Shown here: positions 3,851-14,763 of the stretch, piece by piece | How positions within the stretch are numbered: position 1 is the first letter of the stretch | Layout: the number at the start of each line of letters is the position of its first letter | Assembly: GCA_947258415.1 (NCBI GenBank) | Contig: CAMYIF010000006.1 | Span: 1 to 36,252 of the forward strand | From: an uncultured Pseudomonadales bacterium | Lineage (GTDB): Bacteria > Pseudomonadota > Gammaproteobacteria > Pseudomonadales > IMCC2047 | DNA: 36,252 nucleotides | Reading direction: 5' to 3' | Notes under the pieces: generated by a model | Told to the model about the DNA's origin: nothing | What the model saw: the letters and a program-made list of their open reading frames with translations, nothing else | Databases searched by the model: none | Program-made: the position numbers and the translations under genes

Positions 3851-4912
3851 TCAAACGGGCCCCATCACACCTGTCTCGTAGAACTCTTCCAGTTGCCCGA
3901 GGTACGGCGCTATATCGAAGCCCTTGTCCTCGAGCCATTGCTCGCTGTAATAGGTATTCAGGTATCGTTCCCCGGCGTCGCAGATCATCGACACAACACT
4001 GCCCTCCTGGTTCTGCGCAATCATCTCGGCAATAATCTGGAATGCCGCGTAGACGTTGGTGCCCGTTGAACCCCCGCAGCGACGGTTTAGCAATTTTTCC
4101 AGGAAATGTATGGTGGCGTAGGATGCCACATCGGGTACCTGGATCATCCTGTCCACAATAGACGAAACAAATGATGGCTCGACACGCGGCCTGCCGATAC
4201 CCTCGATTCTTGAACTGTGTTCGGAAACCAGGGTCGCATCCCCGGTTTGAAAGTAATCGAAGAACACCGAATTTTCCGGATCAGCCACACACAGTTTCGT
4301 TGACAGGCACTTGTAGCGAATAAATCGACCGATGGTAGCCGACGTCCCGCCTGTCCCGGCGCCTACTACAACCCAGTCGGGTATCGGGGCAGGCTCCATG
4401 CTCATCTGCGAAAAAATGGATTCGGCTATATTGTTGTTTCCACGCCAGTCCGTGGCACGTTCGGCATAAGTAAACTGGTCCATATAATGCCCGCCCATCT
4501 CGGCTGCAAGCCTTGCAGATTCGGAATAAATATCCCTGGGCTCGACAAAGTGACACCGGCCATCGTAGAAAGTAATTTTGTCGATTTTCTCCCTGGAAGT
4601 ACCTTTGGGCACCACCGCGATAAAAGGCAGATCAAGCAACTTTGCAAAATAGGCTTCCGAGATAGCCGTGCTTCCGGACGAGGATTCGATAATAGGCGTA
4701 TTTTCTTTAATCAGGCCATTACACAGGCCATACAAGAACAGGGAACGCGCCAAACGATGCTTGAGGCTTCCGGTGGGATGCGTGGATTCGTCTTTAAGGT
4801 AAAGGGCGATGTTTTTTGCCGCGTGCAACTCAACCTTGAACAAGTGCGTATCTGAAGATCGTTTGAAGTCGGCTTCTATTCGGGTTATTGCCTGGTTGAC
4901 CCAGTCTCTCAT
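3851..4912 (-). CDS. PLP-dependent cysteine synthase family protein (CysK/Cds1-like)
   Basis: Fold-type II PLP motifs: LKDESTHPTGSLKHRLA (Lys site), ESSSGSTAISEAYFAKLLDLPFIAVVPKGTS, VVVGAGTGGTSATIGRF, GGSTGTNVYAAF. Confidence 0.8.
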   Translation of the reverse strand: MRDWVNQAITRIEADFKRSSDTHLFKVELHAAKNIALYLKDESTHPTGSLKHRLARSLFLYGLCNGLIKENTPIIESSSGSTAISEAYFAKLLDLPFIAVVPKGTSREKIDKITFYDGRCHFVEPRDIYSESARLAAEMGGHYMDQFTYAERATDWRGNNNIAESIFSQMSMEPAPIPDWVVVGAGTGGTSATIGRFIRYKCLSTKLCVADPENSVFFDYFQTGDATLVSEHSSRIEGIGRPRVEPSFVSSIVDRMIQVPDVASYATIHFLEKLLNRRCGGSTGTNVYAAFQIIAEMIAQNQEGSVVSMICDAGERYLNTYYSEQWLEDKGFDIAPYLGQLEEFYETGVMGPV

Positions 4913-5115
4913 TATTTTCCTCGTTATTTTATCGGTTAATGGTTTAACGCTTTATTCTGTCTATCAGTATCTCGATGGCAAACACTGGCTTACAGATTAC
5001 ACTTCAATGTATTAAAAAAGCCAATTACAAAACATGAATAACCATTATAAAAATTCGCCGGTTAACAGCTTAGCCTTTGCTGAGAAAGATCTGAATCGAT
5101 GTTATTCTCAACCCT

Positions 5116-5904
5116 ATGTTATATATTTCCCCGAAATACCAGTCCTGGTTTCAACAGAAAAATATTAATACCTATGCACAGTTGTTAACCCTGGGCAAGG
5201 GTGAAGTCATCAATGATTCCGGCAAGAACACCACCTGGCGAGACCGCTGGCAGCTGGATAGCGAAGATTTCCGTGTCTATGTCAAGCGATACCAGTATCC
5301 ATTCTCACCAAGGTACATGTACCCTCGCGTGCCGCGTGCACTGGTGGAAATGAAAAGTTACCTTTACTGGCAAGATTGCGGTATACCGGGGCCGGAAGTC
5401 ATTGCTGCCGGAGCCTATAGTCCTTTAGGGTTTCATCGCAGCTCTTTAATTATTACCCGGGAAATCAGCGACGCCCAGGACCTGGTACATTTATGCCAGC
5501 AGCCCGAATTTCGCGAAAACAAGGCATTACTGGCATCGGTTTTTGATCAGCTGTCGGATATGCTGGCAACGGCCCACAAGGCCCACTTTTATCATTTTGA
5601 TCTTCATTTTCGAAACATCATGGTAAAGCAGCCAGATGATATTGAATCGGCGAAAGTTTTCTGGATCGACTCTCCCAGGGGCAAATGTAAACGTTCTGCC
5701 AGCAGTTACCTGCAGGCAAAAGACCTGGCCACCATATACCGTGCCTGCCACGAACAGCAATGGCCGACTATCTGGCAAGGATTATCGGCACGTTATTTCG
5801 AAACCATGGGCTACGATGATAAAACGGTTCAACGTCTGAAAAAAATGATCGGCGAACGCCTGGGCAGGCGTGTCGACACACGCAGCATGAGTGACCCCAT
5901 CTAG
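5116..5904 (+). CDS. Lipopolysaccharide kinase InaA/WaaP-like family protein
   Basis: Kinase-like: FRVYVKRYQYP (catalytic Lys region), HFYHFDLHFRNIMV (HxDxxxxN catalytic loop), VFWIDSPRGK (DFG-equivalent Asp). Confidence 0.7.
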   Translation: MLYISPKYQSWFQQKNINTYAQLLTLGKGEVINDSGKNTTWRDRWQLDSEDFRVYVKRYQYPFSPRYMYPRVPRALVEMKSYLYWQDCGIPGPEVIAAGAYSPLGFHRSSLIITREISDAQDLVHLCQQPEFRENKALLASVFDQLSDMLATAHKAHFYHFDLHFRNIMVKQPDDIESAKVFWIDSPRGKCKRSASSYLQAKDLATIYRACHEQQWPTIWQGLSARYFETMGYDDKTVQRLKKMIGERLGRRVDTRSMSDPI

Positions 5905-5979
5905 CATTTCTGCCAAGACACCTGTCACACTGGCTGATAAAATTCAGGTTTATAAGCCAATGCCTGTTGAGAGACTCTT

Positions 5980-6762
5980 TTGATTCAAGCCCAGCAACTT
6001 CAGAAGTTAACGCCAACAACCGGCTCACTGATCTGCAAGCTGGATAATCCGGTCGGCAGTATTGAAGTTCGCCAGTTGAATGATATTCGCTGGTTGCACC
6101 AGGGTGGCGATGCTATCCAGGCGGTTATGTCGCTAAATGACCCGCATAACCTGATGTTGCCATATTCACGCGCAATGCTGCTGGCCTTATGCCTGGCTCC
6201 TTATCCGGATAAGCTGTTAAACCTTGGCTTGGGTGGCGGCATGTTCGTCCGTTTCTTTGAGGAAGTGGCACCCCGGTTGAAAATTGTTTCCGTTGATAAC
6301 CGGCGTGAAATGCTCGATATCATGCAAAAGCATTTCCCCACGCAAACCAATTCTAAAATCCACATTATCGATGCCGAGGCTTTTGTATCAATTGATACAG
6401 AAACCTACGACATGATCCTTTGCGACCTGTTTGATGGTAGTTGCATACCGGACTGTCTTTTTGAGGGAGGCTTTTTCAAGGATTGCGCGGCACGCCTTGC
6501 CACTAAAGGGATTTTGAGCATCAACATACTGGCGATTGATCAGCAGGAATTAACAAGACTGCTGGTCAGTTTGAGGCAATCCCTGCCTTGTGTAGCCATA
6601 TTGGAAGTGGCAGATTTTCAGAATATTATTCTGTTTGCCTCGAGACAGCCTTACCCGTCGATGCGCCGAATCCGCAAACAAGCGAGGATTCAGGGCAAAC
6701 TCCAGGGCATCGATTTCAGTGCCATGCTGGACAAGCTGGTAATGTTGCCGGAAAGGCAATGA
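5980..6762 (+). CDS. Spermidine synthase-like class I methyltransferase fold protein
   Basis: PDKLLNLGLGGGMFVRFFEEVAPRLKIVSVDNRREMLDI and YDMILCDLFDGSCIPDCLFEGGFFKDCAARL are SpeE-like. Starts at TTG. Confidence 0.7.
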   Translation: MIQAQQLQKLTPTTGSLICKLDNPVGSIEVRQLNDIRWLHQGGDAIQAVMSLNDPHNLMLPYSRAMLLALCLAPYPDKLLNLGLGGGMFVRFFEEVAPRLKIVSVDNRREMLDIMQKHFPTQTNSKIHIIDAEAFVSIDTETYDMILCDLFDGSCIPDCLFEGGFFKDCAARLATKGILSINILAIDQQELTRLLVSLRQSLPCVAILEVADFQNIILFASRQPYPSMRRIRKQARIQGKLQGIDFSAMLDKLVMLPERQ

Positions 6763-6832
6763 GCCGCGCATCTTGAATAATACAGGCAGGGATTAACGCA
6801 AATATGTTTCCAGACGTCACTCCAGGGAACCA

Positions 6833-9800
6833 TTGAAAGCCATGACCCTAAGAAAAATCAGAGGCGCCATCCCCTACTTGCTGGTCGTTTTCCTTAACGC
6901 TTTTATCGACCTTGGACACAAGATCACCGTCCAAAATACAGTGTTCAAGGTCTACGACGGCGATACGCAAATAATTTTAACGGCCATTCTGAATGGCCTG
7001 ATCCTGCTACCCTTTATTCTGCTATTTAGCCCGAGTGCCTTCGTCGCCGACAAATACCCCAAAAACCGGGTAATACGTTTTACCGCCTGTGCAGCCGTTG
7101 TCCTCACCATTGCAATTACTGCCTGTTATTACCTGGGCTGGTTCTGGCCGGCATTCGTGATGACCTTTTTGCTGGCTGTTCAATCGGCTTTCTACTCGCC
7201 AGCCAAGTACGGTTATATTAAATCACTGTTTGGCAAGGACAATCTCGGCGAAGCCAATGGTTACGTACAAGCGGTTACCATCGTTGCCATATTGCTTGGA
7301 ACCTTTACTTTCTCGATCTTTTTCGAATCCCTTTACCCGGCCAGTTCAACCGATTCAAGTGATATTCTAAAAGCCATAGCGCCGGTCGGCTGGCTGCTGA
7401 TAATTAACAGCCTGTTCCAACTCGTTTTGGCTTACCAGCTACCAAGGAAAGAAGAGAAAGACGAAGCCAGCCGGTTCAACTGGAAAGCCTATATCAGGGG
7501 CGGACTGGTCGTTGAAGACCTGGTACCGGTCATTTCGCGTGAAACCATACGCCTGTCAATGATCGGTCTTGCCGTATTCTGGTCGGTCGGCCAGGTGTTG
7601 CTTGCGTCATTTCCTGCCTTTGCCAAGGAAACGATGGGTGTTTTCAACACGGTTACGATACAGGGCACACTGGCGGCGACCGGTGTCGGCATTGCCATTG
7701 GCGCTTCCCTGGCGGCCCGCTGGTCACGTCATCATATCGAAACCGGATTGATCCCCATGGGTGCTACCGGTCTTGGCCTGGGACTACTTATGCTGCCCAA
7801 TATTACGTCCGTTCCCGGGCACGTGGCTAATTTCCTGTTTATCGGCATAACGGGAGGATTATTTGTTGTCCCGCTCAACGCGTTGATCCAGTTTTATGCC
7901 CGCGAAAATGAAATTGGCAAGGTACTTGCGGCCAACAACCTGGTCCAGAATATCTGCATGTTCAGCGCACTGACGTTGACAGTTGTATTCTCTCTCGCCG
8001 GTCTGGGCGGAAAAAACATCCTGGTCCTGACTGCGATCGCTGCAATTCTTGGCAGCGGATATACCATCTATAAATTACCCCAAAGTCTGGTCCGGCTGGT
8101 CCTGGGGGCGCTGGTTTCCGGTTTGTACAAGGTTAACGTCCAGGGTCTTAAAAATATGCCCGAGGACGGAGGCGTACTCCTGCTTGGCAATCATATCAGC
8201 TGGGTTGACTGGGCCATTGTCCAGATAGCCAGTCCACGCCCGGTACATTTTGTCATGCTCAAAAATATCTATGATCGCTGGTATTTGAACTGGTTTTTCA
8301 GGTTATTTGGCACCATTCCCATCGCACCCGGTTCGGGCAGTGGCAAATCCTTGCAACAGGTTAGCGGGTTGCTCAATAAAGGCCACGTGGTTTGTCTTTT
8401 CCCGGAAGGTTCTATCAGTCGGAATGGTCACCTCGGTGAATTCAGGCGCGGCTATGAAAGAGCCTGCGCCGAGGCGAATCAGCATGTAGTGATACTGCCT
8501 TTTTACCTGCGTGGCCTCTGGGGCAGCCAGTTTTCCCGTTCATCCCGGAAGCTGAAAAGTATTCGCAGTCACTTACTCGGCATGCATATTATTGTTGCCT
8601 TTGGCAAACCCTTGCCCAGGGATATTAAAGCTGACGTACTCAAGCGTCGCGTACTGGACCTGTCAATTAGCTCGTGGCAGGAATATGTAAACACCCTGCC
8701 CAGCCTTCCACACGCCTGGATCGAAACCGTCAAGCGCCTGGGCAATGACATGATGATAGTCGACTCGTCGGGAACCATGTTGTCCGCGAACCAGTCACTT
8801 GCCCGGGGAATAGCTTTCTCGCGGCGTATTCGTAAAAACAGCTCCCAGCTTAATATCGGGCTGATACTCCCCACCGGCATTGATGCCATATTGGCCAATA
8901 TGGCCACCCTGTTGTGTGGTAAAACCGCGGTAAACCTGAACTATACGGTGAGTGATGAACTGATTAGGGCAGCTATTGAAGAGGCTGAAATTCGCACCGT
9001 TTACACAACAAAATCTTTTCTGGAAAAACTGGAAAAAAAAGGCACGCACCTGACTCCGGTGCTGGCGGGTATCCGTGTGGTTTGCCTGGACGAGCTTAAT
9101 CTCGGTATTGGTAAAACAGAAAGGCTGAGCACATTGACCGCGGTCAGGCTGTTGCCGGCCTGGGGTTTGAAACGGCTCTATTGTCACCCGGTCGACGCAA
9201 ATTCAGCGGCGGCTATCCTTTTTACCGGTTCTCCCGACGGACCCACCAACGGCGTTATGCTAAGCCACCGCAATATCATGGCTAACCTGAAACAGGTTTC
9301 CGATGTGCTTAACACCCAGGAGCAGGACGTTATCATGGCTTCGCTGCCCATGTTTCACCCTTTTGGGTTAACCGTGACTCAGTTTATGCCGCTGATCGAA
9401 GGCTTACCCATTGTCTACCACGACGAGCCCACGCAGGTTCTGAATATTGCCAGGGCAATTGCAAAATACAGGGTAACAGTGCTCTGTAGTACAACGACCT
9501 ACCTGCGTTTGTTTATACGCAACGAGAAGGTACACCCGCTGATGCTTGGCAGCCTGCGTGTGGTGGTAGCGGGTGGAGAAAAACTGAGACTCGGTGTTCG
9601 GGACGCCTTCAAGGCAAAGTTCAACAAGGATATCCTGGAGGGTTATGGCACCACCGAAACGACACCCGTCGCCAGCGTGAACCTGCCTGACACGCTGGAC
9701 CTTAATTACTGGAAAGTCCAGGTTGGCGGCAAACCCGGCACGGTTGGCATGGCCTTGCCCGGTTCCAATTTTAAAATAGTCGACCCCAAAACATTAGAGG

Positions 9801-9994
9801 AATTACCTACGGGGACCAAAGGTATGATTCTTATCGGTGGGGCCCAGGTGATGCTGGGTTACCTTAACAACCCCGAAAAAACAGCCAGGGTAATCAGGGA
9901 AATCGATGGTAATCGCTGGTTTGTCACCGGTAACAAAGGCAGCCTCGATGAGGATGGTTTCCTGACCATTAGCGATCGTTATCCCCGTCAGTAA
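6833..9994 (+). CDS. LplT-like MFS transporter / PlsC-type acyltransferase / AMP-binding (Aas-like) fusion, adenylation domain degenerate and truncated
   Basis: N-terminal MFS (LNAFIDLGHKITVQNTVFKVYDG...SPAKYGYIKSLF); PlsC motifs NHISWVDW (HX4D) and FPEGSISRNG; AMP-binding motifs VNLNYT and EGYGTTETTPVASVNLP. Ends at TGNKGSLDEDGFLTISDRYPRQ*. Confidence 0.85.
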   Translation: MKAMTLRKIRGAIPYLLVVFLNAFIDLGHKITVQNTVFKVYDGDTQIILTAILNGLILLPFILLFSPSAFVADKYPKNRVIRFTACAAVVLTIAITACYYLGWFWPAFVMTFLLAVQSAFYSPAKYGYIKSLFGKDNLGEANGYVQAVTIVAILLGTFTFSIFFESLYPASSTDSSDILKAIAPVGWLLIINSLFQLVLAYQLPRKEEKDEASRFNWKAYIRGGLVVEDLVPVISRETIRLSMIGLAVFWSVGQVLLASFPAFAKETMGVFNTVTIQGTLAATGVGIAIGASLAARWSRHHIETGLIPMGATGLGLGLLMLPNITSVPGHVANFLFIGITGGLFVVPLNALIQFYARENEIGKVLAANNLVQNICMFSALTLTVVFSLAGLGGKNILVLTAIAAILGSGYTIYKLPQSLVRLVLGALVSGLYKVNVQGLKNMPEDGGVLLLGNHISWVDWAIVQIASPRPVHFVMLKNIYDRWYLNWFFRLFGTIPIAPGSGSGKSLQQVSGLLNKGHVVCLFPEGSISRNGHLGEFRRGYERACAEANQHVVILPFYLRGLWGSQFSRSSRKLKSIRSHLLGMHIIVAFGKPLPRDIKADVLKRRVLDLSISSWQEYVNTLPSLPHAWIETVKRLGNDMMIVDSSGTMLSANQSLARGIAFSRRIRKNSSQLNIGLILPTGIDAILANMATLLCGKTAVNLNYTVSDELIRAAIEEAEIRTVYTTKSFLEKLEKKGTHLTPVLAGIRVVCLDELNLGIGKTERLSTLTAVRLLPAWGLKRLYCHPVDANSAAAILFTGSPDGPTNGVMLSHRNIMANLKQVSDVLNTQEQDVIMASLPMFHPFGLTVTQFMPLIEGLPIVYHDEPTQVLNIARAIAKYRVTVLCSTTTYLRLFIRNEKVHPLMLGSLRVVVAGGEKLRLGVRDAFKAKFNKDILEGYGTTETTPVASVNLPDTLDLNYWKVQVGGKPGTVGMALPGSNFKIVDPKTLEELPTGTKGMILIGGAQVMLGYLNNPEKTARVIREIDGNRWFVTGNKGSLDEDGFLTISDRYPRQ

Positions 9995-10050
9995 AGCCCG
10001 CGATAGCGAACCCGATACATTAGCCGGGCATAAGGGGTGCCCGTCAATCG

Positions 10051-10299
10051 TTAGTCATCTTTAGACCGGATAACGTCTATGGTTTGACCGTTAAACGCTA
10101 CCCGGTCTCCGACACTTATTTTTTTTCGTTTTCTTGACTCGATAGCGCCATTAACTCGCACCTGGCCCTCGGCAATAAAATACTTGGCTTCACCACCGCT
10201 TGACGCCAGATTAGCGGCCTTTAGCAGCTTGTATAGTTCGATATACTCGCCCTTGATCGCAAGAGCGGAATCCGCATGATTATTATTTTTAGTATTCAT
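10051..10299 (-). CDS. S4 domain RNA-binding protein, YbcJ-like
   Basis: 82 aa with S4 core LYKLLKAANLASSGGEAKYFIAEGQVRVNGAIESRKRKKISVGDRVAF. Confidence 0.75.
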   Translation of the reverse strand: MNTKNNNHADSALAIKGEYIELYKLLKAANLASSGGEAKYFIAEGQVRVNGAIESRKRKKISVGDRVAFNGQTIDVIRSKDD

Positions 10300-14355: not shown

Positions 14356-14763
14356 ATGAGAGATGTACGTTATCGCATAATATTCAGCGGTAAAATAACC
14401 GATGGTTACAATACTGAGGAAGTAGCGAAAAAACTGGCTGCAATGTTCAACCTGAAAATGGATAACCATGAGCACACGGCCAAACTGGCCAAGCTGATGT
14501 CGCCCTGGCCCGTGGTAGTCAAGCAAGACTTGACCAGGCAGGCGGCATTGAAATACCGGGAAGCATTGGCCAGCGCCGGGGCCATTTGTTCGATTCAAAA
14601 CATGGATGAAGCCTGGGAGATAACCCTCCCCCACAAGGAAAGGCGCAAGGAGCAACGCAGAAAATTCAGGGACCGGCGAGGCTCTCGAAGATCGTCTGCA
14701 ATTATGCCCGATCGCCGCAGAAAACCCGGAAATCGTATAACCGATATACCCTTCGAAGGTTAA
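14356..14763 (+). CDS. Hypothetical protein with a strongly basic C-terminal tail
   Basis: 135 aa: RYRIIFSGKITDGYNTEEVAKKLAAMF... then ERRKEQRRKFRDRRGSRRSSAIMPDRRRKPGNRI. Confidence 0.6.
   Translation: MRDVRYRIIFSGKITDGYNTEEVAKKLAAMFNLKMDNHEHTAKLAKLMSPWPVVVKQDLTRQAALKYREALASAGAICSIQNMDEAWEITLPHKERRKEQRRKFRDRRGSRRSSAIMPDRRRKPGNRITDIPFEG

Follow-up and report, generated by a model that had tools for sequence, protein, structure and literature searches.

In Escherichia coli, LplT (NF008397) and Aas (NF005959/PRK08043) are two proteins that in principle supply a flippase, a 2-acyl-GPE acyltransferase, and an acyl-ACP synthetase with an active ligase. The two proteins form a complex, and the transferase domain of Aas is sufficient to bind LplT (PMC11416262). 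LplT–Aas fusions are described in the same work as uncharacterised (PMC11416262). The Pseudomonas aeruginosa Aas protein PA3267, described as homologous to both LplT and Aas, aids resistance to type VI secretion lipase effectors (PMC12663445); judged by its published description, it is apparently of the same fused kind as the protein analysed here. Intact fusions of the NF006386/PRK08633 family, which carries the name acyl-[ACP]--phospholipid O-acyltransferase, are found in the nearest relative of the present protein, in Pseudomonas, and in Halomonadaceae. They share its domain order, and the closer ones are 57–69% identical to it over about 1047 residues.

The window (the whole 36,252-base stretch of DNA analysed) encodes such a fusion, with the following features:

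6833–9994, + strand: LplT(MFS)–PlsC–AMP-ligase fusion ORF, a lidless NF006386/PRK08633 member (1053 aa, TTG start)
6833–8092, + strand: LplT-like MFS domain, residues ~1–420 (Pfam MFS_1, partial NF008397 match, conserved-site table)
8093–8707, + strand: PlsC acyltransferase domain, residues ~421–625 (Pfam PF01553, conserved-site table)
8189–8212, + strand: acyltransferase motif NHISWVDW (HX4D) (translation, comparison with relatives)
8399–8413, + strand: acyltransferase motif FPEGS (translation)
8750–9979, + strand: AMP-binding N-terminal core, residues ~640–1049, with a predicted intact fold (PF00501, AlphaFold2, Foldseek)
9215–9268, + strand: degenerate P-loop ILFTGSPDGPTNGVMLSH with K806N, ILFSSGSEGxPKGVMLSH in intact relatives (alignment)
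9635–9667, + strand: A5-type motif LEGYGTTETTP, kept (comparison with relatives)
9914–9940, + strand: degenerate motif III RWFVTGNKG with Y1030F and D1034N, RWYxTGDKG in the intact form (alignment)
9974–9994, + strand: hinge DRYPRQ, then the stop codon; the lid of ~104 residues that would carry the catalytic Lys is missing (translation, alignment)
9995–10050, no strand: 56-nt gap between the fusion stop and the next gene, without a lid remnant (tblastn)

The Pfam domains MFS_1 (PF07690, residues 51–377), Acyltransferase (PF01553, residues 433–558), and AMP-binding (PF00501, residues 656–1011) lie on one chain. Homologues align from residue 5–6, so the ATG at 6842 may be the true start. The protein scored 1331.6 bits against NF006386/PRK08633, above the cut-off of 1221, and the alignment halted at profile position 1043 of 1147; the lid, positions ~1044–1147, is absent. 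The LplT profile NF008397 gave 108.7 bits over residues 49–399, its cut-off for stand-alone proteins being 297. The preliminary description of this DNA had taken the MFS and acyltransferase parts to be intact, which agrees with the retention of 46 of 47 MFS and 43 of 43 PlsC conserved sites, including both PlsC motifs, HX4D and FPEG; the motifs that it had read (NHISWVDW, FPEGS, ILFTGSPDGPTNGVMLSH, and WFVTGNKG) and the DRYPRQ end are all present in the translation. The next gene (10051–10299, minus strand) encodes an S4-domain protein, its end facing the fusion stop. The other ORFs scanned with Pfam, at 14760–35044, have an ordinary housekeeping look: they include a glutamate synthase domain, trpC, trpD, trpE, ribulose-phosphate epimerase, TerB-DnaJ, an aminotransferase, lptD, surA, and pdxA.

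By contrast with the intact NF006386 fusions, the window protein lacks the lid, and its P-loop and motif III are degenerate; where E. coli has two proteins and an active ligase, the window has one chain and a ligase predicted to be dead. The same two differences, a missing C-terminal subdomain and a degenerate ATP-binding signature, set the ligase apart from the ANL superfamily (acyl-CoA synthetases, luciferase, and NRPS A domains), with which it shares the N-terminal core fold. We consider it probable that the protein is a once trifunctional lysophospholipid-repair fusion with two working parts and one dead ligase that has been kept.

Motif losses and the missing lid

Four changes distinguish the ligase domain from those of intact relatives: (i) the P-loop reads ILFTGSPDGPTNG, with TGSPDGPTNG in place of the Lys-bearing SGSEGxPKG, and the near-invariant to invariant sites S799, G800, S801, E802, and P805, conserved in 84 of 84 and 46 of 46 intact sequences, are all changed; (ii) K806, which is Lys in 83 of 84 and 46 of 46 intact sequences (the two overlapping alignments in which P-loop conservation was scored), is Asn; (iii) motif III has lost both its Tyr (Y1030F) and its Asp (D1034N), which turns TGD into TGN; and (iv) the chain ends at the hinge, ahead of the lid Lys, as seen both in the translation and in the end of the NF006386 alignment. 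In acetyl-CoA synthetase, no positions of motif III are more sensitive than its Tyr and Asp (PMC3438747), and mutation of the lid Lys of FadD13 abolished ~95% of activity (PMC2793005). The domain has thus lost its catalytic residues, as a pseudoenzyme does. With no lid to carry the catalytic Lys, no P-loop Lys, and no motif III Asp, the ligase is predicted to be dead, and we infer that it can no longer make acyl-ACP.

The preliminary description had already pointed to the lost P-loop Lys, the TGN, and the hinge end, and these readings stand, as does its argument that the missing lid is not simply frameshifted downstream. The gap to the next gene is 56 nt (previously given as ~57), and tblastn with the lids of intact relatives detected no lid remnant in any frame of the window (best E 0.15). 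A lid hidden in another downstream frame was rejected for the window and for nearly all the other lidless loci, the only clear fossil being that of Halomonas sp. QHL1 (L044/L196). A lid profile, which gives 160–172 bits in intact control genomes, found no lid elsewhere in the window genome (95.8% complete) and hence no candidate for a lid supplied in trans.

The window genome is fragmented (229 contigs) and is the one genome of its genus in the analysis, and its nearest relative has the lid, all of which would suit an assembly or sequencing artefact. However, the truncation site lies inside the 36,252-base contig, far from both ends, the stop is preceded by point losses in two separate motifs within one open frame, and some lidless relatives are represented by whole chromosomes (L111, for one, is a complete genome record). 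An artefact is therefore scarcely credible.

AlphaFold2 modelling with 55 homologues gave a mean pLDDT of 89.4 and a pTM of 0.85, with a confidently folded ligase core, and Foldseek matched the modelled core to ANL-superfamily cores, including entries of ~400 residues. The model suggests that the core sequence is compatible with the fold but does not imply stability, as the alignment includes intact homologues; given homologues, AlphaFold would be likely to return the core fold for a destabilised sequence too.

Recurrence of lid loss at the hinge

In most relatives the P-loop reads ILFSSGSEGxPKGVMLSH, motif III is Y-x-TGD, and a lid of ~100 residues ends in a PKLGSGK-type sequence. The nearest relative found (G001/L092), which is 69% identical and belongs to the same GTDB family but to another genus, has the lid and the canonical motifs; because of this, the lid loss is taken as derived in the window's own lineage and not inherited family-wide. 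Inheritance of the truncation within the family is not supported, the sole relative with the gene being intact; a further genome of the family (83% complete) gave no fusion match. No conserved gene neighbourhood was found in six relatives.

Besides the window protein, hinge-ended proteins occurred among 80 related loci in 12 Halomonadaceae and in 1 Sulfurovum (a MAG). In a class-wide survey of 369 genomes, the three species of one genus (f112) all lacked the lid and had P-loops like ILFPNRQNEKVKG, and the 19 other near-complete PRK08633-type fusions were all intact. Of 275 Halomonadaceae genomes surveyed, 70 had a match to the fusion; of the 64 complete fusions, 25 were lidless and 39 intact, and one lidless clade with degenerate ATP-binding motifs spanned 14 species. 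All lidless endpoints fell within a span from roughly 2 residues ahead of the hinge Arg to 16 past it. The class-wide survey also yielded a PRK06814-like fusion of ~30% identity (L165) that stops at the hinge with FLYYKGRI and whose P-loop is degenerate, the same lid loss in a sister fusion family. In a Sulfurovaceae MAG (L100, ORF 4860–8627), the ligase core is cut near the equivalent of window residue 985 and the frame continues into sequence that by eye resembles RsmG, the 16S rRNA methyltransferase; a frame similar to this one overlaps the fusion stop of the lidless L095.

Phylogenetic trees were built without the motif and lid columns and by short searches, so that the exact number of changes is unsure. 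The whole-protein tree of the broad set (18 lidless rows) required 10 changes under parsimony, at least 7 of which were forced by well supported branches; the Halomonadaceae tree required 8 counting the window, 5 of them forced. Trees were also made from the MFS and PlsC domains only, so that decayed ligases could not attract one another. For the broad set, the tree of this kind required 12 changes, at least 8 of them forced, that is, more and not fewer, and attraction among decayed ligases was rejected as the source of the count. We read the changes as losses because regain of a lid would require horizontal transfer. On this reading, the lid has been lost at the same hinge at least seven or eight separate times in related bacteria.

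The preliminary description had set strain-specific decay or an assembly error against a pseudoenzyme shared by relatives. Its alternative holds insofar as a close relative is intact and the loss is specific to the window's lineage. Strain-specific decay or an assembly error is nevertheless insufficient, because the truncation arose repeatedly elsewhere and is conserved within some other lineages. Stages of ligase decay are visible: in Halomonas sp. QHL1 the back half of the lid is still present out of frame, and the P-loop and TGD are intact, whereas in the larger lidless clades the lid is wholly gone and the P-loops are decayed. Two other lidless proteins (L056 and L111) also keep the P-loop and TGD.

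The searched literature, which covered few subscription papers, held no description of lid loss in such fusions. The fusion and its parts were already known; recurrent lid loss at one hinge, with the core kept as a selected pseudoenzyme domain, was not among what the searched papers describe. Like the window protein, the lidless L064, L149, L095, and L061 clear the curated NF006386 cut-off, which makes the family name an annotation trap.

Selection on the lidless core

We tabulated the sites that reach 97% conservation or more across 80 intact fusions and used the MFS and PlsC sites as internal controls for ligase decay. The window protein has lost 1 of 47 such sites in the MFS domain, 0 of 43 in PlsC, 9 of 24 in the ligase motifs, and 5 of 68 in the rest of the ligase core. 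The corresponding losses across lidless proteins were 0–2 of 47, 0–2 of 43, up to 9 of 24, and 1–15 of 68. Of the lidless rows in the two overlapping alignments, 13 of 18 and 18 of 26 had Phe at the Tyr1030 position; no intact row did.

Between the window protein and its nearest relative dS is saturated; the selection figures come from lidless Halomonadaceae, and the core of the window lineage is represented by its open frame and confident model. In disjoint Halomonadaceae pairs, the median dN/dS of the ligase core was 0.152 for lidless and 0.081 for intact proteins (Mann–Whitney p = 0.012), whereas the MFS (0.049 and 0.057) and PlsC (0.046 and 0.034) domains showed no difference. Neutral evolution over the lidless Halomonadaceae pairs would have produced ~85 nonsense mutations in the core and none was seen, in a count that did not class genes with a stop inside the core as lidless; in Halomonadaceae, the only genes with a stop inside the core were damaged in several domains or interrupted where a contig ended. 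Since dN/dS is higher than in intact proteins and nonsense mutations are nevertheless lacking, selection on the lidless core in Halomonadaceae is relaxed but still present.

These results bear on the main rival explanation, the slow erosion of an unneeded domain, in which the gene would be dying from its 3' end by stepwise loss of the ligase, the core being a roleless remnant and an MFS–PlsC protein the end state. Its best argument is that such proteins exist: relatives in the GTDB families f121 and f148 (L159, L160, and L163) consist of the MFS and PlsC parts only (605–628 aa, no ligase domain), so that proteins of this type can persist even without a dead core; no separate Aas was found in their genomes. 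The roughly twofold dN/dS of the core relative to intact relatives and the fresh case of Halomonas sp. QHL1, with half of its lid still out of frame, also fit erosion. However, the core, at a dN/dS of ~0.15, has stayed open throughout the 14-species lidless clade and the three species of f112, the endpoints cluster at the hinge, and no well-assembled Halomonadaceae gene stopped within the core. We therefore regard erosion as unlikely and retention of a dead core as the better account. The preliminary description had proposed an ancestral transport and reacylation fusion with a pseudoenzyme ligase, and this proposal gains support from the intact relatives, the decay at catalytic sites, and the purifying selection in lidless clades.

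Acyl donor and the retained core

The retained core might instead be partly active, in acyl binding or transfer, or its lid might be provided by another protein. When the lid Lys of a related ligase is mutated, a few percent of activity remain (PMC2793005), some losses (L044, L056, and L111) have spared the P-loop and TGD, and f112 also has a separate intact Aas. Yet the ATP-binding motifs are degenerate in the window, in f112, and in the 14-species Halomonadaceae clade, the window genome yielded no lid-like protein, and in the lidless Halomonadaceae genomes searched the lid profile had only weak matches, none above 23.5 bits apart from the L044 fossil. Residual or complemented activity is therefore very improbable, and the dead ligase remains the reading that we follow.

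The preliminary description had suggested acyl donors supplied in trans, which is plausible. The fusion is present as a single copy in the window genome, in the genome of L095, and in each of the 12 lidless Halomonadaceae genomes; an intact second copy was sought in all of these and not found. No separate Aas was found in the window genome or in the lidless Halomonadaceae genomes tested; a FadD-like ligase (L002) and a second gene resembling acyl-CoA ligases (L003) were seen in the window genome, but nothing Aas-like. Because of this lack of a separate Aas, ordinary acyl-ACP of fatty-acid synthesis would be the simplest and most likely donor in the window lineage and the lidless Halomonadaceae. 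Only genus f112 has full-length standalone Aas ORFs (L208, L209, and L210; 725–740 aa) beside the lidless fusion, and L208 has canonical motifs on reading.

In the mechanism that we propose, the LplT-like part would flip lysophospholipids to the inner leaflet, and reacylation by PlsC would follow, most likely with acyl-ACP from normal fatty-acid synthesis; both activities of the lidless fusion are predicted from its sequence. The dead core would be kept because it helps the other domains to fold, make contacts, or oligomerise, or because it docks acyl-ACP. The wider form of this proposal, that Aas synthetase cores were converted convergently to a non-catalytic scaffold, acyl-ACP dock, or regulator as repair switched from free fatty acids to the acyl-ACP pool, is one to which we give slightly less than an even chance. 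Repeated lid loss at the hinge amounts to a natural experiment on a flippase–acyltransferase–ligase fusion, which suggests that the ligase activity is dispensable and the core not readily so, and that lysophospholipid repair is separable from the recycling of free fatty acids. Cultured Vreelandella and Halomonas include both lidless and lid-bearing species, in which the question can be tested directly.

Two relatives with intact fusions carry additional related sequences. The Dasania genome (L034) encodes, besides its intact fusion, an extra 443-aa LplT-like protein without acyltransferase or ligase domains (G075:C20:198518-199738). Another genome (G077:C38:16088-16234) contains, away from its intact fusion, a 56-aa frame similar to the latter half of a ligase lid (63 bits), which is perhaps a duplicated fragment.
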